Assembly (NCBI GenBank): GCA_027055805.1
Contig: JALUMR010000077.1
Coordinates: 1-33,708 of the forward strand
Direction of reading: 5' to 3'
Source of the DNA: Campylobacteraceae bacterium
GTDB lineage: Bacteria; Campylobacterota; Campylobacteria; Campylobacterales; Sulfurovaceae
DNA: 33,708 nucleotides
Position 1 is the stretch's first letter. Each line of letters starts with the position of its first letter. The notes beneath the pieces are model-generated. The model made no database searches. It had not been told where the DNA came from and was given only the letters and a program-made list of their open reading frames with translations. Both the position numbers and the translations under genes were made by a program. Of the stretch, positions 15,180 through 28,521 are shown in pieces.

Positions 15180-16016
15180 TTAGTAGACTATTTCAGCTTG
15201 TCCATAAAGGTTTTCTACTTTGTTTTGTAGTTTTTTCATCACTTCTTGTTGTTTAATTACCTGCTCAATTTTCTTTTTTGCTTTGTTAAAAGTAAGTTTT
15301 CCAGCAGCTTTTTTATTTAAAAGATAAACCACATTGTATCCATGTTCAGTTTTTACTGCTGCATTAAGTAGACGTTTAACTTTGTATTTATAGGCTTTGT
15401 TAAATAGATTTTCAGGAGCATTCCCTTTTCCAAACCAACCCATGTACCCGTTTTGTTTTCTTTCATGAGCAGCTTTCAGAAACGCTTCATCTAAATTAGT
15501 AGCACCTTGTAGTGATTTTAGAAGTTTGTCTGCTTCTGCTTTGGTAGGTACAATGATATCTGCTATCTCTATAGAATCAGGAAAGTTAAAAGCTTCTGGA
15601 TTATTATCGTAGAACTCTTTTAATTGACTCTTGGTTACTTTTGCTTTTTTAAACTCTTTTTGTTGATAAAGAGCAATGGCAATAGCACCTTTTATATTTC
15701 GTAGCTGTTCTTTGTTTAAGTTTTTACCAGTGTTTTTTTTGTATGTCTTTTGAGCAAGACTCTTTTGTTGTTTAAATGCCTTTTTGAATTCTGCACTTTT
15801 AACAAGTGAACTTTTTAATAAATCCTCATGAAGAACTTCTTCTTTTATGAGTTGCTCCATTAAATTGGCACGTTGTGTATCGTTTAGTTTCTCATAGCCA
15901 GGAGGTATAACATCTGTTGTAATTTTATGACCATTTACGGTTACTAGTGTTTGTCCAAAAAGAAGAGATGAGCTTAGTGTTAATGTCGCAAGGAGTGCGA
16001 TGAGTTTTTTTTGCAT
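15180..16016 (-). CDS. Periplasmic parvulin-type peptidyl-prolyl isomerase (SurA/PEB4-like)
   Basis: Signal peptide, LVTVNGHKITTDVI, VPTKAEADKLLKSL, NGYMGWFGKGNAPENLFNKAY, VKTEHGYNVVYL. Confidence 0.85.
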   Translation of the reverse strand: MQKKLIALLATLTLSSSLLFGQTLVTVNGHKITTDVIPPGYEKLNDTQRANLMEQLIKEEVLHEDLLKSSLVKSAEFKKAFKQQKSLAQKTYKKNTGKNLNKEQLRNIKGAIAIALYQQKEFKKAKVTKSQLKEFYDNNPEAFNFPDSIEIADIIVPTKAEADKLLKSLQGATNLDEAFLKAAHERKQNGYMGWFGKGNAPENLFNKAYKYKVKRLLNAAVKTEHGYNVVYLLNKKAAGKLTFNKAKKKIEQVIKQQEVMKKLQNKVENLYGQAEIVY

Positions 16017-16087
16017 TTCTATTTTCCTTATATTGTTAGATTTTTAGATTTTATATCTCTATTGTGAAAAAACTGTGTTTTTATTAT

Positions 16088-16834
16088 TTAGCCAATGGTC
16101 TCGGCAACAAAAGTTTTGGTTACTTGTCCACCAAACTTGTAAGTTTCATCTTCTAAACTGACATAGAGTTCATCTCCTGAGCGAGGAAATACTCTTACAT
16201 TATCATCGACCAAATCTTCACCATTGGCACGTATAAAACAGGCAACCATACCTGTACCACAAGCTAGTGTTTCATCTTCTACACCACGTTCAAAGGTTCG
16301 TACATAAAGTGTATTTTCTTCAATTTTACAGATGTTAACATTACAGTTATATTTGTTGCGTAGACGTGCTGCTTGTTCTAGGTCAAACGCTTCTATGTTG
16401 TCACGTAACGCAACCAAGTGAGGGACACCCGTGTCTATAAACCACCATCTCTCACCCTCTTCATCTATCTCTTTACTCAAGATTACAGGCTTGGTCATGT
16501 CTGAGACCACATAATTACCATTGACTTTGGCTCGTATAACACCAGCACCCGTTAAAAATTCTGCTTCAGCATCTTGAGAGATACCTTTTTCCATGGCAAA
16601 GTGTGCTACAGCACGAGAGGCATTTCCACACATGGTAGCACGACTTCCATCTGAGTTATAAAACTCCCACTCAAAGTCATACTGTTCATGAGGAATAAGT
16701 ACCACCAATCCATCAGCACCTATACCATTTTGACGATGACACAGTTTTTTAGCCAGTTTAGAACGGTCTTTTTTCTTTTTTTTGATTATCATAACAAAAT
16801 CATTGCCATTGGCAGAGTATTTGGTTACAGTCAT
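16088..16834 (-). CDS. dapF: Diaminopimelate epimerase
   Basis: KYSANGNDFVMI, NSDGSRATMCGNASRAVAHFA, ERGVEDETLACGTGMVA. Confidence 0.95.
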   Translation of the reverse strand: MTVTKYSANGNDFVMIIKKKKKDRSKLAKKLCHRQNGIGADGLVVLIPHEQYDFEWEFYNSDGSRATMCGNASRAVAHFAMEKGISQDAEAEFLTGAGVIRAKVNGNYVVSDMTKPVILSKEIDEEGERWWFIDTGVPHLVALRDNIEAFDLEQAARLRNKYNCNVNICKIEENTLYVRTFERGVEDETLACGTGMVACFIRANGEDLVDDNVRVFPRSGDELYVSLEDETYKFGGQVTKTFVAETIG

Positions 16835-16939
16835 TGTTCACCCTTTAGGTTTTAATGTTGTAAGTATACATGAAGAGTATTAATAGATATTTAATCATTA
16901 ATAGATAGTATTTTAGTTGACTAGAGTTTTGAAAGAAGT

Positions 16940-17353
16940 CTATTCTTTAAAAGTATAATATCTAGAAGGATACTCTCCATTAAGTAAAATTTCATTGGAG
17001 TAAAAAGTAAAAAGAGCAGAAGAGTCTTCTGTGGCTCCTACAGGGATGGGTACTGCTTCTGTAATGTTGATTTTTTTCTCTATCTTTTTTAGTAGTTGAC
17101 GGCTTTCATCATCTTTGATTTGAAATTCATCTACAAGTAAATCATAGGCATTTTTTTTACTTTTGTCGTAACGTTGTACCCTCTGGGTTAAAAAAAGAGA
17201 GTTGTCAAGTTCTGCATTTCCTCGTTTCATGAGGTAGGTTGCCATGTCACTGTTTTGTTCTTGTAATTGTAGTGCACCCATTACCACGATTGAGACGATA
17301 ATAACAGACATAATAACTTCTATAAGTGTAAAAGCTTTTTTTCTATTGTTCAT
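16940..17353 (-). CDS. Type II secretion minor pseudopilin (GspI-like position)
   Basis: Prepilin N-terminus NNRKKA|FTLIEVIMSVIIVSIVVMGALQLQ. Confidence 0.75.
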   Translation of the reverse strand: MNNRKKAFTLIEVIMSVIIVSIVVMGALQLQEQNSDMATYLMKRGNAELDNSLFLTQRVQRYDKSKKNAYDLLVDEFQIKDDESRQLLKKIEKKINITEAVPIPVGATEDSSALFTFYSNEILLNGEYPSRYYTFKE

Positions 17354-17371
17354 ATATTTATATTCCTCTAT

Positions 17372-17908
17372 TTAGTAAAATGAGCTACTGTCTTTTAAAT
17401 CATACTTACTCTTTATCCATAACTCTTTGGCTTCATCCATATCTTCTACTTTTTTAGCTTTGCCAAAATAGCTGGGAAGAAAGTAGATGCCTTGGTCATT
17501 TACTACAACCATTTGTGTGGTACTACCATTTGGGTAAAGATGAAATCGAAAGCTTATTTTTTCATCTTTGAATCGTCCCAGTTCCTCTTGTTGTACAAAG
17601 TGGTTATTATTATCTAGTGTATGAATCTCTACATTTTTACCAAATTTTATACCACCATCGTAAGCGCTTATCTTTCCTTTTTGCATCACAGAGCATTCAG
17701 TACATTTTTTAACACAGAAAAGTTCAACATCACCTTGACCTTTAAATGTTTTTTTGAATGTACTAGGAAGCGTAGAAGGGTTTAGCACTTCTACTTTTTT
17801 TTGCTGTTTAATGGCAGAAGAGAAAACTAAAAACCCAACAAGTGAGACAATCATAACAACAACAATAAGTTCTAAAAGAGAAAATCCTGAACGGGTTGTT
17901 GTAGACAT
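17372..17908 (-). CDS. Type II secretion minor pseudopilin (GspH-like)
   Basis: Prepilin N-terminus MSTTTRSG|FSLLELIVVVMIVSLVGF. Start chosen at the ATG ending at 17908, just after the gspG stop, rather than the ORF-track start at 18001 inside gspG. Confidence 0.75.
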   Translation of the reverse strand: MSTTTRSGFSLLELIVVVMIVSLVGFLVFSSAIKQQKKVEVLNPSTLPSTFKKTFKGQGDVELFCVKKCTECSVMQKGKISAYDGGIKFGKNVEIHTLDNNNHFVQQEELGRFKDEKISFRFHLYPNGSTTQMVVVNDQGIYFLPSYFGKAKKVEDMDEAKELWIKSKYDLKDSSSFY

Positions 17909-17909
17909 T

Positions 17910-18437
17910 CTATTTGTTACATCCTGAATATTTAATATCAGCGTATTCGTCAGTTCCACCTTCACGTTTGTCAGCACCATAAGAGATGATATCAAAAGCA
18001 TTACCTGTTTTAATATAGACCATTTTTGAACCCCAAGAGTCTTTTGGAAGGTGTTCTAGGTAAGCAGCTGAAGAGTAATTTGAGTATTTGTCTGCGTCTG
18101 GGTTTGATTGTAGTGCTTCAAATCCTTCTTCTGTATCTGGGTACATTCCATTGTCAAGTTTAAACATTTTGAGTGCATTTGCAGCACCTTTCATATTGAC
18201 ACAAACCAAGTCTACTTTTGCTTTGTCTCCTGCTCCTACAACTCTAGGAACTACGGCTGCTGCTAAAATTCCTAAGATTAAAATAACAACCAAAAGCTCA
18301 AGCAGTGAGAAAGCGTTTTTTGTTGTTGTTAAAGATATTTTATTCTGTTTTTGATTGACTTTATTAATTAAAAAAATATTTTTATTTTTAGTTAAAGTTG
18401 TTGTTTTATGGCTTTTTAGTCCAAATTCTTTAGTCAT
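17910..18437 (-). CDS. gspG: Type II secretion major pseudopilin GspG
   Basis: A|FSLLELLVVILILGILAAAVVPRVVG..., DNGMYPDTEEGFEAL, YLEHLPKDSWGSKMVY, DIISYGADKREGGTDEYADI. Confidence 0.93.
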   Translation of the reverse strand: MTKEFGLKSHKTTTLTKNKNIFLINKVNQKQNKISLTTTKNAFSLLELLVVILILGILAAAVVPRVVGAGDKAKVDLVCVNMKGAANALKMFKLDNGMYPDTEEGFEALQSNPDADKYSNYSSAAYLEHLPKDSWGSKMVYIKTGNAFDIISYGADKREGGTDEYADIKYSGCNK

Positions 18438-18500
18438 GTTTAAAATCCTTAGTTTAAGTTGGTTATAATAGTGCTGATTTTACTTGAATTGAGCTTTATT

Positions 18501-19415
18501 ATGGATAAAACAAAACGTGGTATCGCACTTTTTATTACATTGATGGTGATTGCTTCTATTATGTCTATAATAGCTGTATCGTTTACCTATTTGGAAAAAG
18601 TGCAAAAAGATGCTGGAGCAACATCGGCTATTTTACAAGGGAATCTGTTACAAAAAAATACAGTAAATATTTTAAAACGTTTTTTCCCACAAGGGAAGGA
18701 CAACAGTGAAAAATTAAAATTAATATATACAATGCCTTTGATGTTGAGCGAAGCAAAAAGTGGGTTTGGATTAAATTTGAGTTGTAAGCCATTGATGGTG
18801 GGTGTACCCATCTCTTGGTTGGATCAATCTATTGTTCCAAAATCACCAAAAAAGATGAACTTAGCACGTAAAACACTTAGTTCTGTAATGGAGAATTATG
18901 ATATTGAAGAGCCAAATGAGCTTGAAAAACTTATAATGAAAGCTGTTACAGGAAAAGTGTCACAAAATGAAGATGATGCTCCTAGAATACAAAGCAAAAA
19001 AGGAGTTGTCTCAAAAAGTCAGTTTGATAGGATTATTGCAGACTATCGTTTACGATTTGATGATCCAAAGGTACTATCTATCCCATGGGAGCGTTATTTT
19101 GCATTCGTAAAAGTAGATAAAACAACAAAAATAGATGGAGCCTACTTAACACCTGAGTTTATTTCAGTTGCTTTTGAAGAAGTTTCTATAGAGACAGTAA
19201 AAGAGGATTGGATAATGGGAGAAACCACTTTAGAGAGTTTTTTGAAAGACAACTCTATAATGGAGCCTATAGATAAAAAAATCTATTCCAATCAAGCACT
19301 CAATGCAATGCATTGTGAAGAGACCTATGCTTATAGAGATGGGCAATATAAAATGAATTTTGATTACATTGAAGGAAGGAGTGGCAATTTTGAATTTAAC
19401 GGCAAAGCAGAGTAA
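18501..19415 (+). CDS. GspK-like type II secretion protein
   Basis: MDKTKRG|IALFITLMVIASIMSIIAVSF: prepilin-like N-terminus, size and position match GspK. ATG at 18501 preferred to 18459. Confidence 0.65.
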   Translation: MDKTKRGIALFITLMVIASIMSIIAVSFTYLEKVQKDAGATSAILQGNLLQKNTVNILKRFFPQGKDNSEKLKLIYTMPLMLSEAKSGFGLNLSCKPLMVGVPISWLDQSIVPKSPKKMNLARKTLSSVMENYDIEEPNELEKLIMKAVTGKVSQNEDDAPRIQSKKGVVSKSQFDRIIADYRLRFDDPKVLSIPWERYFAFVKVDKTTKIDGAYLTPEFISVAFEEVSIETVKEDWIMGETTLESFLKDNSIMEPIDKKIYSNQALNAMHCEETYAYRDGQYKMNFDYIEGRSGNFEFNGKAE

Positions 19416-20319
19416 TAGAATATTAATCCATAAAAATATGGAACCTGTAAAATTAGAAAACTCTGTTGAGATTATACTGACACCTCAGTTTTATACTTTT
19501 TTACGTGAAGAGTTGGATATCAAGTTTGCGTATCAAGCAAAACAGATAGCAGGGTCAATGTTTGATGACTATTTAGATACATCTAAAGCGTATCAATATC
19601 ATGTCTATAAATGTGATAACGCATGGTGTTTTTTTGCATATAATATAGAAGAGATAGACCAATTTTTAGAGAGTGTAGGTATAGAGAAACATCGTGTTTC
19701 CAAAATATACTTTGCACAACAGCTTGAAAGTGAGTTGTCTACACCCTTGTTATTAAGTGGCAACCATGCTTTACAAAGTGTTGATGGTATCGTAACCATG
19801 GTTCCTAAACGTTTATTGGGAGATGAAGTAGCATACTCTACACTGGACATTGACAAGCCAAAGCTTAAAAATGGTGTTAGTATGGGGGATTCGCTTGACT
19901 CTTTTGTTTCATTAAAAGAGACCATTGTTTTAGGTTCACTTCTTGCACTTTTAGGTACAACATTTATCGTAGAAGGTCAGCGTATAAAATCATCTATAGC
20001 CAATGAAGATGCTAAGTTAACGATGCTTATTGATGATAATCCAAAATATGGAAGTAGTGCTTTAAGAGCAAGTATTTTAGATAAGTATAAACCAATTGAT
20101 ACCATAGAACGTGCTAAGAGAGATGCGATAAAAGATATATCTACGCTTTTATCAGCAAAAAGTCAACTTAAATCACTGACAATTGATAAAAACATAGTCT
20201 CTGCAGATATTATGACACAAAACGCAAACATTAGTAAGCAGGTTAAAGAGCATGGAAAAGCTAAAAAAATGAAAATATCAGGTTCAGGTCTTAATGTGAA
20301 AGTGGAGGTTCAACTATGA
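19360..20319 (+). CDS. GspL-like type II secretion protein
   Basis: Cytoplasmic domain then a single TM (TIVLGSLLALLGTTFIVEG) and periplasmic coil; position between K-like and M-like genes. Start (TTG 19360 or GTG 19381) uncertain. Confidence 0.5.
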   Translation: MITLKEGVAILNLTAKQSNRILIHKNMEPVKLENSVEIILTPQFYTFLREELDIKFAYQAKQIAGSMFDDYLDTSKAYQYHVYKCDNAWCFFAYNIEEIDQFLESVGIEKHRVSKIYFAQQLESELSTPLLLSGNHALQSVDGIVTMVPKRLLGDEVAYSTLDIDKPKLKNGVSMGDSLDSFVSLKETIVLGSLLALLGTTFIVEGQRIKSSIANEDAKLTMLIDDNPKYGSSALRASILDKYKPIDTIERAKRDAIKDISTLLSAKSQLKSLTIDKNIVSADIMTQNANISKQVKEHGKAKKMKISGSGLNVKVEVQL

Positions 20320-20732
20320 ATTTAATGACACTTCAACGTTATAAAAATGAAATTATTTTACTCTTAGCACTACTCTTTGCTATAGCTGCTTTTTTCTATA
20401 AGCTAAATGCCAGTTCATATGTAAAAGAGAATAAGGCACAAATACAACAGCAGATAGCTGAGATAACAGCTATTAATAAGTATAAAAGTCAATGGGATGG
20501 CAAAGGTATGCCAAACAAAGTTAAAGCTTTAAAAACAGTTGTAGATGCTTCTAAAGTGAAATCTTTTAGTAAAAAATCTAAAAAATTGGTAGCCTCTTAT
20601 GTAAATCTTACAGCAAATGATTTAAATAAAATAAATAATAAATTGATAAATATGCCTGTTCAGATAATAAAACTTCAGGTTACTGAGAGTTCAAAAAATA
20701 TATATTCTATGGAGTTCACATGCAAATGGTAA
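20316..20732 (+). CDS. GspM-like type II secretion protein
   Basis: Short cytoplasmic N-terminus, single TM (IILLLALLFAIAAFFY), coiled periplasmic part; ATGA coupling with upstream gene. Confidence 0.45.
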   Translation: MNLMTLQRYKNEIILLLALLFAIAAFFYKLNASSYVKENKAQIQQQIAEITAINKYKSQWDGKGMPNKVKALKTVVDASKVKSFSKKSKKLVASYVNLTANDLNKINNKLINMPVQIIKLQVTESSKNIYSMEFTCKW

Positions 20733-21238
20733 AACGAATAGTAGGTGGATTTTTACTCTTTCTTGTACTTATGTGGATTCTTGCACCAAAGCAAGAACTC
20801 TATTATCTATTAGAAAAGAAGTTAAAAGAGAATGATATTGTCCTCTCAAATGAGACCGTTACAGACACATGGGTTGGTCTGAATATAAAAAATGCAGATG
20901 TTTATGTTAAGGGTATTAAGATGGCAAATATAGCTGACTTACAACTCAATATTTTCTTTTTTTATAACAGTTTAAACGTAGAAAATATAAATATAGATGA
21001 GTCTCTACGGGCTATGGCTCCCAAAGCCATAGATGAGCTAAATGTTAAGTACTCTTTGCTCAATCCCCTAAATGTAACCATAGATGGTTTGGGCAGTTTT
21101 GGTACAGCATCAGGCACAGTAGCCCTAAAGGCGAAGCAAATTCATATCGATTTTCCTGTAGCAAAAAATATACAAGCAATTAAAAAGTTTTTGAAAAAAG
21201 ATAAAACAGGAGGATGGTACTATGAAACAAGTTATTAA
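20720..21238 (+). CDS. GspN-like type II secretion protein
   Basis: Single N-terminal TM and AsmA/GspN-like DTWVGLNIKNADVYVKGIKMANIADLQLNIFF; embedded in T2SS operon. Confidence 0.45.
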   Translation: MQMVKRIVGGFLLFLVLMWILAPKQELYYLLEKKLKENDIVLSNETVTDTWVGLNIKNADVYVKGIKMANIADLQLNIFFFYNSLNVENINIDESLRAMAPKAIDELNVKYSLLNPLNVTIDGLGSFGTASGTVALKAKQIHIDFPVAKNIQAIKKFLKKDKTGGWYYETSY

Positions 21239-22052
21239 TACTAAATATTTTTCGACAGCCATATTCTTTTTATCTATTATAGTTTTAGTAAAACTTATCT
21301 GGTTAGGAGTTTCACTCTTTTTATTGCCAAGTTCAGGAGAAGAGTATGCCCAAGAGGGAAAAGCAAAAGCTTTATACTATAGAGTAAAATTAACCAATGC
21401 AGCTGCTTCTATTGCTCCTGTAAATACTACTAGAAAAAAAGCACCAGTTGTAAGTTCCATGAGGGGTATTAAGCTTTTAGCACTCTATAATGCTTCTGAT
21501 GCATTGGTCGTTACTGTAGTAAAAGGTTCTAAAACAACCGTACTTGGAAAAGGTGAAAAGATAGATGGGTTTACCCTTACCTCTGCTGGTCCAAACTTTG
21601 CAATGTTTACAAAAGGAGATAAAGAGTTTAAACTCTCTTTGATTAATATTAAAAATTCAGGTAAGTCACGTTCTAGACCTAAGGCTGTATCGTCAAATGA
21701 TAAAAAACCAAATAATGCTATTGTTGAAGAGGGTGGTGTAAAGCATATCAAGAGAGACCTATTAACCTCTTATACTAAAAATGTAGACAAGATTTGGAAA
21801 GATATAGGAATTAGTGAAAATAAAATCTCTGGTAAAATAAATGGATTTAAAATTAACTTTGTCAAAAGAGGCAGTGATTTTGAAAAGCTAGGACTTCAAC
21901 GAGGTGATATTCTCATGGGAATAAATGGCGAAGAGTTAAACTCTTACGGTGCGGCCATGAGCTTTTTTAAAGATATAAATAATATAGAAAATTTAACATT
22001 AACCGTTCAAAGAAATGGTGCAACAGAGGAGTTAGAATATGAAATTAAGTAA
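21222..22052 (+). CDS. GspC-like type II secretion protein with PDZ domain
   Basis: N-terminal TM, HR-like domain (RGIKLLALYNASDALVVTVVKGSKTTVLGKGEKIDGFTL), C-terminal PDZ (FEKLGLQRGDILMGINGEEL). Confidence 0.75.
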   Translation: MKQVINTKYFSTAIFFLSIIVLVKLIWLGVSLFLLPSSGEEYAQEGKAKALYYRVKLTNAAASIAPVNTTRKKAPVVSSMRGIKLLALYNASDALVVTVVKGSKTTVLGKGEKIDGFTLTSAGPNFAMFTKGDKEFKLSLINIKNSGKSRSRPKAVSSNDKKPNNAIVEEGGVKHIKRDLLTSYTKNVDKIWKDIGISENKISGKINGFKINFVKRGSDFEKLGLQRGDILMGINGEELNSYGAAMSFFKDINNIENLTLTVQRNGATEELEYEIK

Positions 22053-24231
22053 ACTGGCATTAGGTTTGATTTTGGCTTTGAGTGTACAAGCTCAGGCAGA
22101 AAAGGTAGATGTAAACTTTAGAGATTTGACCATTAGTGACTTTATTAAAATGGTTGGTAAAATCACAGGAAAAAATATTTTAGTAGATGGAGATATTAAA
22201 GGTAAAATAAACTTTGTCTCCAATACCCCTATTGACAAGAGTGAACTTATTCCTTTAGCCAATGCTATTTTGGGAACTAAGAAGATGACTTTGGTAAAAA
22301 AAGGAAATTATTATCAAGTAGTTAAGTCAACCACAGCTCCAGGTCAAGGACTGGATGTCTCTTCCAGTGTTACCTCTGGTGATGGTACCATGAAAACAGT
22401 GGTTTTTCAACTTTCAAATGTGAACTCAGCTGTTATTCGTACTAAAATTAAACCACTTCTTAGCAAAAGTGCTAAAGTGGTCTCTTTTAAGAAAAACAAC
22501 CTTTTAACCATTACTGATTACCCTCGTAACTTGAAAACGGCTAAAAAACTTATAGATAAGATAGAAAATAAACAGGCAAAGCTAAGTAAAGTGGTCTATT
22601 TACAAAATGCACGTGTTAAAGATGTTTATCCCAATATTCAAAGTATGTCAAAAGCACTTTTCTCTCAAGATATCCCGAGTGAAAAAGTAGCTGTTATGCA
22701 AAACTCAAATGGGAACTCCATTATTTTAGTTGGAAAGCGTTCTAATGTTAAAAGATTAGAAAAGTACATACAACAGCTTGATTTACCTGGTGGAGGTGAT
22801 AGTCAAAGAATGCATGTTATTCCTCTGATGAACTCCAATGTTGAAGAGATGGAGAAAATTTTAAGCAAAATTGTACCACAGTTAACAGGTAGAGGATCTA
22901 TCTCATCAGGAGGCACACCTGCAAGGGCTATGGGTGGAGCACCTGCAGGAGCTGGAGGAATGGCTCCGTCTTCTATAGGTAATGGAAAACCAGCACCTAA
23001 AGCAGTTATTGCTTCTGATGTAGAGAGAAACTCTTTGATTGTGTTGGCAAATGAAGACCAGTATCAGAATATTTTAGAGACTGTAAAACTACTTGATGTA
23101 GAGAAATCACAAGTGTTTATTCAGGCAAAAATTGTGGAAGTCAATACCAACTTGGCAGAAAATATAGGTATTAAGTATGGATTTAATGGGGGAGCCATTA
23201 CCTCAAATGGTCTCTTCTCTTTGGCTGGAAATGCTGGGGCTCCTGCTTTGGCTATTTCGCAGTCACTTCTTGGATTTCTTAGTAATGAAACTTATCATGA
23301 AGGGACAAATGGTAATAGTGGATATACAACAACAGATAGAGCTTTTCAGTTTGATTCTGGTATAAGTAAAGTGTTCTCTCTAGGTGCAAAACTTGACCTT
23401 TTAAAGCAAAATGGTGCAGCCCAAATTTTGTCTAAGCCTTCTGTATTGTCAACCAACAACAAAGAGGCAAGTATCTATGTGGGAAGAACACAGTCAATTT
23501 TAACTCAGTCACAACAGAGTACACAAGGTTCATCAAATGTACTCAACAACTACTCTCGTGAAGATATTGGTATTACTTTGAAAGTCAAACCAAGACTCTC
23601 TTCTAACAATAAGGTTTCACTTGAAATTGAAACCACTATTGAAGATATTGTTCCTGGTTCGGGTGCTACTGCTGACCGACCAACCACAACCAAGCGTTCT
23701 GTTAAAACCAATGCTATTGTTAATCATGCAGAGACCATTATATTGGGTGGACTTATAAAAAGTGCTGATGGAAAGAGTCAAACGAAGATACCTATTTTAG
23801 GTGATATCCCTATTATTGGAAGACTTTTTACCTCTAACGGTAACTCCTCAAGTAAGGTCAATGTGGTTATTTATATCACACCATATATTCTTAAAAAGAG
23901 TGCAGATTTAACCTCTTTACGCGCTCATTTAGATGAACTAGAGGCTGTTCAACAACAGTACAACAAGATAGTATTTGATAGATTAGAAGCAAGAGTAGGA
24001 AACCCTTCAAACGGAAGACATAGTACATTTAATGGTCAGTCAAGTTATGATAATGATTTTGAAAACCCTGTTAAATCACTTCCTAAACCTGTAGAGGTCT
24101 CAAGTGGAAATGATTATGAAGTGTATGAACCAACACCTCCTGTAGTTTCAGACTATACACAGGAGAGTGATTATGTACAGAGTGAATCTATTATGGATAC
24201 GATTGACAATAGTGCAAAAAACAGTTACTAG
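22039..24231 (+). CDS. gspD: Type II secretion secretin GspD
   Basis: Signal peptide, N0/N1-N3 domains, Gly/Ala-rich insertion, secretin core GAQILSKPSVLSTNNKEASIYVG...ILGGLIKSADGKSQTKIPILGDIPIIGRLFTS. Confidence 0.95.
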   Translation: MKLSKLALGLILALSVQAQAEKVDVNFRDLTISDFIKMVGKITGKNILVDGDIKGKINFVSNTPIDKSELIPLANAILGTKKMTLVKKGNYYQVVKSTTAPGQGLDVSSSVTSGDGTMKTVVFQLSNVNSAVIRTKIKPLLSKSAKVVSFKKNNLLTITDYPRNLKTAKKLIDKIENKQAKLSKVVYLQNARVKDVYPNIQSMSKALFSQDIPSEKVAVMQNSNGNSIILVGKRSNVKRLEKYIQQLDLPGGGDSQRMHVIPLMNSNVEEMEKILSKIVPQLTGRGSISSGGTPARAMGGAPAGAGGMAPSSIGNGKPAPKAVIASDVERNSLIVLANEDQYQNILETVKLLDVEKSQVFIQAKIVEVNTNLAENIGIKYGFNGGAITSNGLFSLAGNAGAPALAISQSLLGFLSNETYHEGTNGNSGYTTTDRAFQFDSGISKVFSLGAKLDLLKQNGAAQILSKPSVLSTNNKEASIYVGRTQSILTQSQQSTQGSSNVLNNYSREDIGITLKVKPRLSSNNKVSLEIETTIEDIVPGSGATADRPTTTKRSVKTNAIVNHAETIILGGLIKSADGKSQTKIPILGDIPIIGRLFTSNGNSSSKVNVVIYITPYILKKSADLTSLRAHLDELEAVQQQYNKIVFDRLEARVGNPSNGRHSTFNGQSSYDNDFENPVKSLPKPVEVSSGNDYEVYEPTPPVVSDYTQESDYVQSESIMDTIDNSAKNSY

Positions 24232-24240
24232 GTAAAGAAG

Positions 24241-25755
24241 ATGATGAATTTACCTTTACTAGAAAATAGAGACTTAGAACCTTTTTGGAGTGAAGAGATA
24301 AACAATAAACTGGCAATGAAACACCAGTTACTCTTTGCAAATATAGACAACACTCCTACAGCTGTTGTCAAAAGAGAGAGTTTGGCAATGTCCATTAACC
24401 ACCTCTCTCAAATAGACGTAGATTACCCTTTAGTCGAGCTAGATGAAGGAAGCTTTGAGCGTCTTTATAATAAATTTCAAGAGATACAAACAGGTTCAGA
24501 CTTTGAAAACGTTGACACCTCTACAGGTGATGATGTTATTGAAGTAGAGTCTGACTTACTTGATTTTATACGAAACTCACAAGATTTACTCTCAAATGAA
24601 GAGTCAGCACCTGTTGTAAAGCTGGTGAACTCACTCTTCTTCCAAGCCATTAAAAAAGGTGCATCTGATATTCACATAGAAACTTTAGAGAAAAAAGGTG
24701 AGGTACGTTTACGGGTAGATGGTGCTTTGAAAAAACATCTTGATATTGACAAAAATGTTACAGGTTTGGTGATTTCTCGTATTAAAGTTATCTCCAACCT
24801 TGATATTTCTGAAAAGAGAATACCTCAAGATGGTCGTACACAAGTTACTATCTCTGGAAGAACCTTAGACATTAGGGTTTCTGTTTTACCAACCTATTAT
24901 GGTGAACGTGTGGTTATGAGACTTCTTATGCAGAGTGATACCATTCCTACTTTACAAGACCTTGGGTTTACAGATGAGTTGACAGAAGATTTAAACAAGC
25001 TTCTAACCCATCCACATGGAATGATGTTGGTTACTGGTCCTACGGGGTCTGGTAAATCAACTACTCTACATGCATGTTTACAACATATTGCCACACCTGA
25101 CAAGAATATTATTACAGTTGAAGACCCAGTGGAGTACAATGCTGACAATGTCAATCAAATACAAGTGAACGAAAAAGTAGGTTTAACTTTTGCAGCAGGT
25201 TTACGTTCGATACTAAGACAAGACCCAGATATTATTATGATTGGAGAGATAAGGGACAGCGAAACAGCCGATATCGCTCTGCGTTCAGCACTGACAGGTC
25301 ACCTTATGCTTTCTACCCTACATACCAATGATGCTACCTCAGCCATTTCAAGATTGATGGATATGGGAATTGAGGACTTCTTACTTACTTCAACACTTTT
25401 AGGTGTTTTGGCACAGCGTTTGACTCGAAAATTATGTCCAAAATGTAAAGAGCCAACAACCTTAGCCCCTGTTGTTATGTCAGAATTGAAATTGCCTAAT
25501 ATCGAGTACTTCCAAGCAAAAGGGTGTATCTCTTGTGATTTTACTGGTTACAGTGGACGACAGGCAGTAGGGGAACTCTTTGTAATGGGCGATGAGGTGA
25601 AGCAGATGATAAAAGATGGTTTAAATGACCACCAGATACGAATAGAGATGAAAAAAGCAGGTATGAAAACCATTGCTGATAAGCTTAAAGATATGCTTAT
25701 TGATGGAACAACCTCATATGAAGAGACAGTGCGTATCGGGATAATGGAAGATTAG
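24241..25755 (+). CDS. gspE: Type II secretion ATPase GspE
   Basis: VTGPTGSGKSTTLHA, ITVEDPVEYN, GLRSILRQDPDIIMIGEIRDSETADIALRSALTGHLMLSTLHTNDA, CPKC...GCISC zinc motif. Confidence 0.96.
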   Translation: MMNLPLLENRDLEPFWSEEINNKLAMKHQLLFANIDNTPTAVVKRESLAMSINHLSQIDVDYPLVELDEGSFERLYNKFQEIQTGSDFENVDTSTGDDVIEVESDLLDFIRNSQDLLSNEESAPVVKLVNSLFFQAIKKGASDIHIETLEKKGEVRLRVDGALKKHLDIDKNVTGLVISRIKVISNLDISEKRIPQDGRTQVTISGRTLDIRVSVLPTYYGERVVMRLLMQSDTIPTLQDLGFTDELTEDLNKLLTHPHGMMLVTGPTGSGKSTTLHACLQHIATPDKNIITVEDPVEYNADNVNQIQVNEKVGLTFAAGLRSILRQDPDIIMIGEIRDSETADIALRSALTGHLMLSTLHTNDATSAISRLMDMGIEDFLLTSTLLGVLAQRLTRKLCPKCKEPTTLAPVVMSELKLPNIEYFQAKGCISCDFTGYSGRQAVGELFVMGDEVKQMIKDGLNDHQIRIEMKKAGMKTIADKLKDMLIDGTTSYEETVRIGIMED

Positions 25756-25758
25756 AAA

Positions 25759-26331
25759 ATGATAAAACAGCAACAAAAGGGCTTTACTCTTATAGAAGTT
25801 CTTATATCAATTACTTTGTTGTCTTTAGTGCTTATGGCACTCTATAAAAGTGCTGATATTTTACGTAATTCTAATCTACACCTTTTTAAACATTTGGAGA
25901 AATCTAGCAATACTTTAAAAGGAAGCAGAACACTCTATATGGACTTGACACATGCTGACCATAATATTACTGTGCTAACAGAAGATAAACTACATCGACT
26001 TATTATTGAAAATACAACACACTCTCTCTATGGTCAAGGAGCTGCAAAAGTAACTTGGTTGGTAGCAAAAGAGAACAACACTTTGCTTCGTATAGAAGGA
26101 GGAAACTATACAATTCCCCTTAGAGGTGAACAGCGTGTAGAAGTAGATGAGGTTGCTAAAGATATAGAGATGTTTAAAATTTATAAAAGTAAAAAGAGAG
26201 ATAAAATTTTAGCCATTATACAGATAAAGGGTCAAGAGGCTCAAACTTTTATGGTTCAAAATATTCCTTTACGTCCTGTTGATACAAATGGTACAAAGAA
26301 AAAAAAGCCTACTAAGCCCCAAATAAAGTAA
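25759..26331 (+). CDS. Type II secretion minor pseudopilin (GspJ-like)
   Basis: MIKQQQKG|FTLIEVLISITLLSLVLMALYKS. Confidence 0.7.
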   Translation: MIKQQQKGFTLIEVLISITLLSLVLMALYKSADILRNSNLHLFKHLEKSSNTLKGSRTLYMDLTHADHNITVLTEDKLHRLIIENTTHSLYGQGAAKVTWLVAKENNTLLRIEGGNYTIPLRGEQRVEVDEVAKDIEMFKIYKSKKRDKILAIIQIKGQEAQTFMVQNIPLRPVDTNGTKKKKPTKPQIK

Positions 26332-26373
26332 TATTATATTTTAAGTTTAAATTAATATTAAGTTAAACTACAC

Positions 26374-26471
26374 TATAATACATTTAGAAACAATAAATAA
26401 TATATTTACATGACAACTTTTAGTAAATTACCTATAAAATAATTAAATAATCGTTAGAATTTTACTAAAAG
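26374..26471 (+). promoter_or_regulatory. Candidate promoter (-10 TATAAT 26374-26379) and leader stem-loop upstream of exosortase
   Basis: cttttagtaaatt (26417-26429) and aattttactaaaag (26458-26471) are near-perfect inverted repeats. Confidence 0.4.
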
Positions 26472-26497
26472 CATGGTCATCAAAGGCAACATAAAGA

Positions 26498-26974
26498 ATG
26501 AAAAAATTTTTATTGAGTTATTGGTTAGGTATTGCCATGTTATTTGGGGTGTTTTATTGGGATTTATCTCCTTTAAGCTCCACTATAAATAGTATACAAA
26601 CAAATTTAACAGTATATCTTACCTCACTAAGCTTAGCTGATGGTATGATGGAGGGTTATCGTATCTTAATTAATGAACACTACTCTTTGGTTATTGAGAA
26701 AGCATGTAATGGGATAATTCCCTATCTGTTTTTCTTAGCATCCATTATTGCTTTTCCCTCTACCTTTAAGCATAAGCTCAAATGGGCAGTAATGGGATAC
26801 ATATTTATAACATTTATGAATGTTTTTAGAATTTGGTTTGTAACCCAACTGGTTCTTCAAGCACGTAATAATTTCTCTTTAGCACATGACTACTTAGGAA
26901 ATGCACTATTGATTTTAACGGGCCTTCTTCTTTTCACTTGGTTCGTTAAGAGCCGAGAGAAGAAGGTCTCCTAA
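26498..26974 (+). CDS. Exosortase-family transpeptidase-like membrane protein, compact (XrtH-like)
   Basis: All three family catalytic positions visible: VIEKACNGI (Cys), NVFRIW (Arg), LAHDYLGNALLI (His); multi-TM; IIAFPSTFKHKLKW segment. Confidence 0.85.
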   Translation: MKKFLLSYWLGIAMLFGVFYWDLSPLSSTINSIQTNLTVYLTSLSLADGMMEGYRILINEHYSLVIEKACNGIIPYLFFLASIIAFPSTFKHKLKWAVMGYIFITFMNVFRIWFVTQLVLQARNNFSLAHDYLGNALLILTGLLLFTWFVKSREKKVS

Positions 26975-28521
26975 GCTCTTTCAACTCTCCACTCCTGATT
27001 TTCAGTACCTCTAACTTTTTTGTGAAAACTTTGTAATTTTGTTCCATCTTTGGTTTTTTTATACTTAATATCTAAAACATTTAGGGACCATTTATTAACG
27101 ATAAATACATAACCTTTATCTTTAGATGTTTCTAGTTTCCACTCTTGATGGTCATTTTTACGACTTCTTTTTTTATTTAAAATAATTTTAGAACCATCAT
27201 TGCTATCGCTATCTTTTATCTCTATTACTTTGCCTGTTTTAGCATTTTCTATAAAAAAATACTCTTTATTCTTATTGGCTTTGGTAAATATCCACTGTTG
27301 ATTAGGGTTGCTCTTATCTGCTTTTTCTATAATAATCTCATCATTCTCATTAATACTTATAGCAACATCTGCTAATTTGGAGAGAAGCATAAACTTTTTG
27401 CTATCAATAGGCTCTTTTTCTTCTTTTTTATCATTTTCTTTTGTGACAGTAGTCTCTTTTTCTAAACTCTGCTCCTTTTTACGTTTATAGATTACAAAGA
27501 ATGTCATAATCATTAGTATCACTCCTCCAACAGGAGCAGAAAAGTTTTTTAATAGAGAGGCATATTTTTGTGAGAGTTCCTCTTTAACCTCTTCATAATT
27601 AGTAGAGGGAATATCTTTAGTACTTCCTCCTAGTTGTTTCATTTTTTTATAGTTGCTAACATAAAGATTTTCATCACCTTGAAGCTCTTTTACCATTTGG
27701 TTTTTTCTCTTTTCCCATCTGCTTACAGGGTCCAAGTTGTTCCAAGCTATAAACATTTTTTCTTGACTTTTAGAGATACGTAACCCATAACGGTCTCTCA
27801 TATAGAAGTATACTCGTGCAATATCTCCAAAAACACTTTCTCTGGGTTCTGCTTTTTTATTAGAAAAAGCTATCTCCATATTAACTTTCCCATAAAGGCG
27901 TTTTTCACCTTCTATTATGCCGTACTTAAAGTTACTTCTGTCACCATTAATCTCTCCAATGGCAGGGACAAGGTTGTGCATGTCTGCTTCCATCTGTTTA
28001 AACTTGTTATTGTTTTGTCTACAAGCCATTCGACCACCGTTTTGCCAACAGTGTAGCTGATGTCCAAAGTGCCAAGCAGGAACCACATGTTCCCACTCTA
28101 TTCGATTGGCTCTATTTTTGTTTTTACGATAGTGAAATCCACAAGTTTTTGGTAGAGGTATAAGTTTTTTCTCTTTAATCTTATAGTCACAGTCCGAATA
28201 GAAAGCCTTTTGATGTTCGGGGTAGATTTTGGTAGCAAGTAAGCGTTTAGATTTCCCAAAAGAGAATCGCTCTCCTTTGGCTGTAAATATAGCATCATCA
28301 ATGGTTGCAACATCTTCATCAAAAAGGTCACCATCTTGTTGCATGAAGTACTCATCTCCATTAACAATAATTTTTTTTAATAGTTCTCCCGTTTCAGAAG
28401 TAAAAAAAGTATTGATATCAGAAGCAGAGAAGAACTTTTGAGCTTCGTAGTTTTCATCATTTTCTTGAGAGAGTAACAGTGTAGCAGTAAGTGTTAAAAG
28501 GAGTATTGTTTTTTTCATCAT
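26971..28521 (-). CDS. EndA-like endonuclease I with internal TM and C-terminal ricin-type (QxW)3 beta-trefoil
   Basis: Signal peptide; endonuclease I core ANRIEWEHVVPAWHFGHQ...EADMHNLVPAIGEINGDRSNFKYG; TM PVGGVILMIMTFFVIYKRKK at about aa 330-348; NQQW, HQEW, NQEW motifs. Confidence 0.85.
   Translation of the reverse strand: MMKKTILLLTLTATLLLSQENDENYEAQKFFSASDINTFFTSETGELLKKIIVNGDEYFMQQDGDLFDEDVATIDDAIFTAKGERFSFGKSKRLLATKIYPEHQKAFYSDCDYKIKEKKLIPLPKTCGFHYRKNKNRANRIEWEHVVPAWHFGHQLHCWQNGGRMACRQNNNKFKQMEADMHNLVPAIGEINGDRSNFKYGIIEGEKRLYGKVNMEIAFSNKKAEPRESVFGDIARVYFYMRDRYGLRISKSQEKMFIAWNNLDPVSRWEKRKNQMVKELQGDENLYVSNYKKMKQLGGSTKDIPSTNYEEVKEELSQKYASLLKNFSAPVGGVILMIMTFFVIYKRKKEQSLEKETTVTKENDKKEEKEPIDSKKFMLLSKLADVAISINENDEIIIEKADKSNPNQQWIFTKANKNKEYFFIENAKTGKVIEIKDSDSNDGSKIILNKKRSRKNDHQEWKLETSKDKGYVFIVNKWSLNVLDIKYKKTKDGTKLQSFHKKVRGTENQEWRVERA

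Follow-up and report, generated by a model that had tools for sequence, protein, structure and literature searches.

An exosortase encoded beside a type II secretion operon in relatives of Sulfurovum, and a family of C-terminal adhesin tails as its candidate clients

A compact exosortase is encoded directly behind a type II secretion system (T2SS) operon in the window, the 33,708-nt stretch of DNA that was analysed here, and a family of C-terminal tails, found on large adhesin-like proteins, accompanies this enzyme across the genus and beyond. We consider it probable (about 0.7) that the exosortase is dedicated to large, Sec-exported adhesins bearing these tails, which would be sorted at the inner membrane, delivered by the T2SS and anchored at the cell surface; the cut site, the anchor and the transport through the T2SS are the parts of this reading that we infer. 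The genome to which the window belongs is 1.8 Mb in size, 75% complete and distributed over 205 contigs. In the following, genomes are numbered with G, loci with L, contigs of the window's genome with C and genera with g.

The exosortase and the neighbouring secretion operon

The preliminary description of this DNA had reported a 158-aa ORF with the motifs KACNGI, NVFRI and AHDYLGN, located 166 nt after a pseudopilin gene, and had taken it for an exosortase. All of these elements were found as stated, and the HMM check of the identity gave 52.3 bits with TIGR04178, the general exosortase/archaeosortase signature model (cut-off 23). The ORF is a member of the exosortase/archaeosortase superfamily. 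Its putative catalytic residues C70 (KACNG), R111 (NVFRIW) and H130 (AHDYLGN) were invariant across 18 aligned relatives, with identity down to 24% and few other residues invariant, and no loss of the Cys/Arg/His triad occurred among these orthologs. The AlphaFold2 model was mostly helical with long hydrophobic helices (mean pLDDT 89.4, pTM 0.81). A Pfam search with the ORF gave no match, and no solved exosortase was matched when the PDB was searched by sequence and by fold. None of the named exosortase subfamily models reached its cut-off with this ORF: XrtX (NF046081) scored 57.6 bits against 170 and XrtH (TIGR04177) 56.0 bits against 86. The earlier designation "XrtH-type" can thus be kept only as a description of the nearest neighbour. 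The exosortase and the genes of the secretion cluster are as follows.

16940–17353, minus strand: minor pseudopilin (TIGR02532, 24.2 against 16.3 bits)
17372–18001, minus strand: pseudopilin in the gspH position (TIGR02532, 19.8 against 16.3 bits)
17910–18437, minus strand: major pseudopilin GspG (TIGR01710, 125.4 bits, cut-off 88.85)
18459–19415, plus strand: gene in the gspK position, 318 aa (position only, no family match)
19360–20319, plus strand: gene in the gspL position, 319 aa (position only, no family match)
20316–20732, plus strand: gene in the gspM position, 138 aa (position only, no family match)
20720–21238, plus strand: gene in the gspN position, 172 aa (position only)
21222–22052, plus strand: GspC-like PDZ protein (NF041515 GspC, 88.3 bits, and TIGR01713, 78.2 bits, both below cut-off; PDZ domain)
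22039–24231, plus strand: T2SS secretin GspD (TIGR02517, 410.7 bits, cut-off 351.35; N0 domain PF21305)
24241–25755, plus strand: T2SS ATPase GspE (best model TIGR02533 type_II_gspE, 554.8 bits, below the cut-off of 630; PilB, 480.9 bits)
25759–26331, plus strand: pseudopilin, 190 aa, directly 5' of the exosortase (TIGR02532, 30.9 against 16.3 bits; PF07963)
26498–26974, plus strand: exosortase/archaeosortase family protein, 158 aa, ATG start (TIGR04178, conserved triad, AlphaFold2)

The operon upstream of the exosortase is a T2SS, as had been proposed, with GspD and GspG passing the NCBIfam cut-offs. The genes in the K, L, M and N positions had no convincing match in Pfam or NCBIfam and are named by gene order only. 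For the gene in the gspN position, 13 homologs likewise gave no convincing Pfam match, and the single-sequence structure model was poor. No gspF was found within the T2SS cluster of the window, in which L and M are assigned by position only, and no exopolysaccharide genes were recognised in the window. The pseudopilin stop (26331) and the exosortase start (26498) are 166 nt apart, and a promoter of its own had been suggested for the exosortase. In a 900-bp stretch, 8 matches to the promoter consensus were counted, not clearly more than the 4.6 ± 2.4 of shuffled sequences, and the evidence for such a promoter is weak; the overlap of start and stop codons in relatives (see below) argues for an operon instead.

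Convergent with the exosortase, a gene at 26971–28521 on the minus strand encodes an endonuclease I that also has a ricin-type lectin domain. The two domains are separated by a hydrophobic segment with KRKK behind it (around residue 340). This protein, a candidate secreted nuclease, is conserved in the two closest relatives.

A family of C-terminal tails on large adhesins

The preliminary description had seen no substrate tail in the window and had expected the targets to be elsewhere or atypical. A scan for transmembrane-basic tails likewise found none in the window, with the reservation that its charge criterion was set too narrowly, so that tails of mixed charge would escape it as well; run with the same strictness on the exosortase loci within the genus, it found none there either. 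A weak IPTL-CTERM match in G003 pointed to a protein ending in SIPTLGIYGLILIVTFGSIFGASLMRRE, and a search with this tail revealed related C-termini across the genus. In their consensus, C-x-x-Y is followed, after a short spacer, by what is typically S[IV]P; then come the transmembrane helix and a terminal R[KR]E-like stretch, which is of mixed charge and not purely basic. About 36 distinct tails of the CxxY form were collected; since CxxY was required in the collecting search, its presence in 39 of 39 tails holds by construction, and three spurious frames were removed by eye. The cysteine before the helix was invariant in all 19 genus tails whose alignment constitutes profile A4.

With A4, 33 of the 34 genus genomes were matched at E ≤ 2e-4, a count that is partly circular, as some 18 genus genomes had contributed tails to the profile, so that the order-wide test described below is the cleaner one. 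The targets are indeed elsewhere, as motif-transmembrane-charged tails occur in the window's own genome on C50 (3551–3661, 6.7e-18), C63 (4.6e-15), C31 (5.1e-9), C7 (1.9e-5) and C193 (2.1e-4). The sole genus genome lacking a match was G013, whose weight as an exception, with exosortase and without tails, is lessened because its four fetched SdrD-type genes are all cut at contig ends. In sister genera the motif is CxC...SGG-like. The variants CGCDRKQVSNDSGGGSAMG (G061), CSSSQTSDSGGAPSLG (G196), CPCEKVKSDGSPAM (G163) and CLCVVQHDSASSF (G128) retain the cysteine, the transmembrane helix and an R-x-E-like end. The tail family matches none of those described, as far as could be found, and is apparently undescribed. 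IPTL-CTERM itself (TIGR04174) was rejected as the tail, with no protein over the cut-off in 41 genomes and no match whatever in the window's own genome.

Complete tailed proteins have signal-like N-termini, as judged by eye, and contain SdrD_B, CshA-repeat, cadherin-like or laminin-G domains, which are adhesin architectures. The largest tailed open frame, in G009, comprises about 7,100 codons. SdrD_B was over its cut-off in 14 of 16 exosortase-positive and in 0 of 8 exosortase-negative family members tested, and in G041, a genome of another family with no exosortase detected, an SdrD_B protein ends without a tail. In both G061 and G196 a gene for a small outer-membrane-type protein stands between the tailed gene, which comes first, and the exosortase gene. 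The G061 locus (L225, 1–7173) carries SdrD_B adhesin paralogs with identical tails 5' of the exosortase, one of them frameshifted before the tail. Just 5' of the exosortase, a gene for such a small outer-membrane-type protein (about 200–230 aa) is conserved in g26, g27 and g28 (L193, L194, L189, L186).

The co-occurrence of enzyme and tail was assessed in a sample of 200 genomes of the order, 18 of which have an exosortase. At E ≤ 1e-3, A4 matched tails in four genomes, and all four were among these 18. A broader profile, A6, matched seven genomes at the same threshold, again all exosortase-positive (hypergeometric value 1.4e-8, although the genomes are related and the counts not independent). 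A6 is no independent test, because four of its seven positive genomes had supplied some of the tails in it, and the G061 tail used in it had been found by looking beside its exosortase; A4, made from genus tails only, is the cleaner profile. Between E 1e-3 and 1e-2, A6 matched 12 further genomes, mostly without exosortase, and these matches look like background. Enzyme and tails also vary together within genera: in g4, G163 and G174 possess both and G036 and G185 neither, and in g26, G061 possesses both and G060, G090 and G207 neither. Nine genus genomes have tails and no detected exosortase; all nine are fragmented assemblies, although some may truly lack the enzyme. Taken together, the pairing of exosortase and tail is well supported.

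These distributions also bear on the question of whether the tails are cut by an intramembrane protease of the rhomboid or CPBP (myxosortase) type, the exosortase having other clients. The cysteine motif of the tail does recall MYXO-CTERM, which is cut by a CPBP protease, and many of these genomes do encode a rhomboid. Against this, G015 has tail and exosortase without a rhomboid, G036, G185 and G207 have a rhomboid with neither tail nor exosortase, and G109, G162 and G206 have no rhomboid; the two rhomboids examined scored 52 against the cut-off of 84 for rhombosortase (TIGR03902). From this survey, which covered rhomboids, we regard the involvement of another protease as very unlikely. Rhombosortase in particular was rejected as the tail-cutting enzyme, as the distribution of rhomboids does not track that of the tails.

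Genomic position of the exosortase

An exosortase was detected in 25 of the 34 genus genomes. In 19 of these 25 it lies directly after the gspE-pseudopilin end of the T2SS operon; the adjacency seen in the window proved to be conserved within the genus, and it recurs in four further genera. In G002, G008, G016, G018 and G023 the exosortase gene overlaps or abuts the pseudopilin gene (-4, -1 and +4 nt are among the spacings from stop to start), which argues for one operon. Outside the genus, gspD and the exosortase are no more than about 11 kb apart in g4, g27, g7 and g18, with differing gene arrangements. In g4 (G163, G174) it lies between a pseudopilin gene and gspF on the opposite strand, near gspD; in g27 (G115, G128) and g7 (G162, G206) it is within the same distance of gspD, and in g18 (G109) beside gspF-E-D. 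No adjacency of exosortase and gspD was seen in g2, g21, g24, g26 and g28, and in six genus genomes (G005, G013, G015, G017, G020, G029) the exosortase is away from the T2SS. A search of genome contigs with profile A2 gave 18 exosortase loci, and the titled ones were all from Sulfurovum or Campylobacterota-type assemblies.

In a tree of 30 exosortases, two clades received 100/100 support, one containing every T2SS-adjacent sequence (16 of its 24 rows), the other XrtH-like with zero T2SS-adjacent members in the sample. The tree is compatible with a single origin of the T2SS association, so that its occurrence in five genera is no proof of five separate origins. The tree also bears on the idea that the enzyme might be a normal member of XrtH acting on IPTL-CTERM proteins. 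XrtH is one of the two best-scoring named models, and G053 and G056, of the same order, have IPTL-like tails together with an extra membrane gene. Yet the score lies under the XrtH cut-off, IPTL-CTERM is over its own in 0 of 41 genomes, the XrtH-like sequences form the separate clade that was never T2SS-adjacent in the sample, and the genus loci that were read showed no accessory membrane gene. Such an assignment can hardly be maintained.

The exosortase is also conserved as a neighbour of dapF, and this includes G013, G015 and G017, where the T2SS is elsewhere. As the dapF neighbourhood is conserved too, the proximity to the T2SS could be historical: the exosortase would cut the tails, and the adhesins would arrive at the surface by other means, or else remain periplasmic or at the inner membrane. 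The six genus genomes and five other genera without adjacency agree with this, and dapF conservation provides, in part, a positional reason for the locus of the exosortase. However, the adjacency recurs in five genera with differing gene orders, the exosortase start overlaps the pseudopilin gene in relatives, and in the window's lineage as well as in G008, G012 and G018 the exosortase remains with the T2SS and dapF is separated. Moreover, almost all members of the family with an exosortase have a GspD that exceeds its cut-off. A purely historical proximity therefore seems unlikely to us, and a functional link of the exosortase with the T2SS is preferred. A T2SS also occurs without exosortase, in G036, G090 and G185 (GspD over the cut-off) and in G060 (GspD just under it), which indicates that the T2SS is maybe necessary and not sufficient.

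Several rearrangements were observed at these loci. Comparison of window positions 15180–26974 with L065, L066 and L078 showed an inversion of the T2SS-exosortase block with respect to dapF-ppiC-lspA-glmM in the lineage of the window, where the exosortase moved with the T2SS and not with dapF. In G009, G019 and G023 the exosortase is duplicated in tandem after the T2SS operon (the pair of G023 lies at L046, 13389–14546); copy 1 begins at or near the pseudopilin stop and copy 2 follows 130–260 nt further on. In G005 (L035, 1–1414) an exosortase fragment at a contig end lies directly 3' of a gene for an S41 peptidase, the homolog of which is encoded at 660–1988 of the window. XrtH-like systems were found in other families of the order, in G056 (L037, 2727–7121) and G053 (L038, 5736–9656), where IPTL-like tails of the PISDFAK or PLSPLALG type are encoded beside an exosortase and a gene for a 170–198-aa membrane protein.

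A proposed sorting pathway and its relation to known systems

In the proposed pathway, the adhesin would be exported by Sec and its N-terminal signal peptide removed, the tail helix holding the protein in the inner membrane. The Cys70/Arg111/His130 centre of the exosortase would then cut near the boundary of motif and membrane, and the new C-terminus would probably be passed to a lipid or another small anchor. Finally, the neighbouring T2SS would export the adhesin through the outer membrane, and the anchor would hold it on the surface. We infer T2SS carriage of the tailed adhesins from the genomic associations described above. By analogy with the MYXO-CTERM model, itself unproven at the lipidation step, the conserved tail cysteine may be the lipidation site. 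The preliminary description had raised the possibility of secretion followed by sorting. The idea of a sorting system was supported, with tails that co-occur with the enzyme, and the order is more probably the reverse, sorting at the inner membrane before transit of the outer membrane.

Counting against the pathway are the six genus genomes and the genera g2, g21, g24, g26 and g28 without adjacency, the nine genus genomes with tails in which no exosortase was detected, the genomes with a T2SS and no exosortase, the conserved dapF neighbour and the size of the clients, since we know of no precedent for a T2SS carrying proteins as large as these (up to about 7,100 codons). For the passage of exosortase clients through the Gram-negative outer membrane, on which to our knowledge there is no settled account, an exosortase in a T2SS operon, together with an identifiable client family, offers a concrete and testable route, and the pathway suggests how relatives of Sulfurovum display very large adhesins. 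A further-reaching reading, to which we give slightly less than an even chance, is that this constitutes a third, independently evolved sort-then-T2SS display pathway, in which an exosortase clade evolved as a T2SS partner, the tail cysteine serves as the point of lipidation or hand-off and giant adhesins are displayed through the T2SS. If true, three unrelated enzyme families, with rhombosortase and myxosortase, would have converged on T2SS-coupled anchoring.

The system extends the known C-terminal sorting systems, its new elements being the tail family, unmatched to described ones, and the T2SS-linked exosortase clade. It shares with EpsH/XrtA-PEP-CTERM and XrtH-IPTL-CTERM the superfamily, the Cys/Arg/His signature and motif-transmembrane-charged tails on Sec-exported proteins. 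It differs from them in the tail motif, in the score below the XrtH cut-off and in that no exopolysaccharide genes were recognised in the window, whereas EpsH/XrtA-type exosortases usually adjoin such genes (PMC1569441). In Myxococcus xanthus, myxosortase MrtX, a CPBP protease, cuts the MYXO-CTERM proteins, which have an invariant cysteine, and the T2SS delivers them (PMC11980579). The tripartite tail, the invariant cysteine before the helix and the surface location (here with a presumed T2SS transit) are alike, but MrtX belongs to a protease family unrelated to exosortases, and its tail has a GCGC-type motif and an Arg-rich end in place of CxxY...S[IV]P and the mixed R[KR]E end. The GlyGly-CTERM proteins of Vibrio cholerae are processed by rhombosortase and delivered by the T2SS (PMC6219818, PMC13393428). 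The pathway proposed here would resemble that of RssP in tail processing at the inner membrane followed by T2SS delivery and surface anchoring, although RssP is a rhomboid serine protease and not an exosortase. No particular T2SS subclass was marked by rhombosortase in a survey of 2011 (PMC3237569), unlike the exosortase considered here, which is encoded in or near the T2SS locus. The Gram-positive MSCRAMM adhesins SdrC and SdrD likewise combine SdrD_B repeats with a C-terminal sorting tail; there, LPXTG, sortase and the cell wall take the places of the exosortase and the T2SS. In Acinetobacter baumannii, the T2SS displays lipoproteins in a GspN-dependent manner (PMC12802150). This system also places lipid-anchored proteins on the surface, and the operon of the window has a gene in the GspN position, but the A. 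baumannii clients are acylated at the N-terminus and the window gene is GspN-like by position only.

Papers in the open-access PMC literature name both exosortase and type II secretion, and none was found there that describes their pairing. In the PEP-CTERM paper of 2006, the T2SS E protein was only the 34th match of the phylogenetic profile (PMC1569441).

Other tail types were observed beside exosortases. In G109 (L214, 4636–8279), G162 (L217, 5141–8283) and G206 (L218, 12014–15147), subtilisin-like proteins with GlyGly-like tails of the GGGSAPLFD or HGSAPLVD type are encoded directly beside the exosortase, near the T2SS, in genomes in which no rhomboid was found. G206 (L219, 3838–6686) encodes in addition a second, divergent exosortase-like protein beside a 776-aa protein that ends in IPLANGG, a transmembrane helix and RRR, the two forming a dedicated pair.
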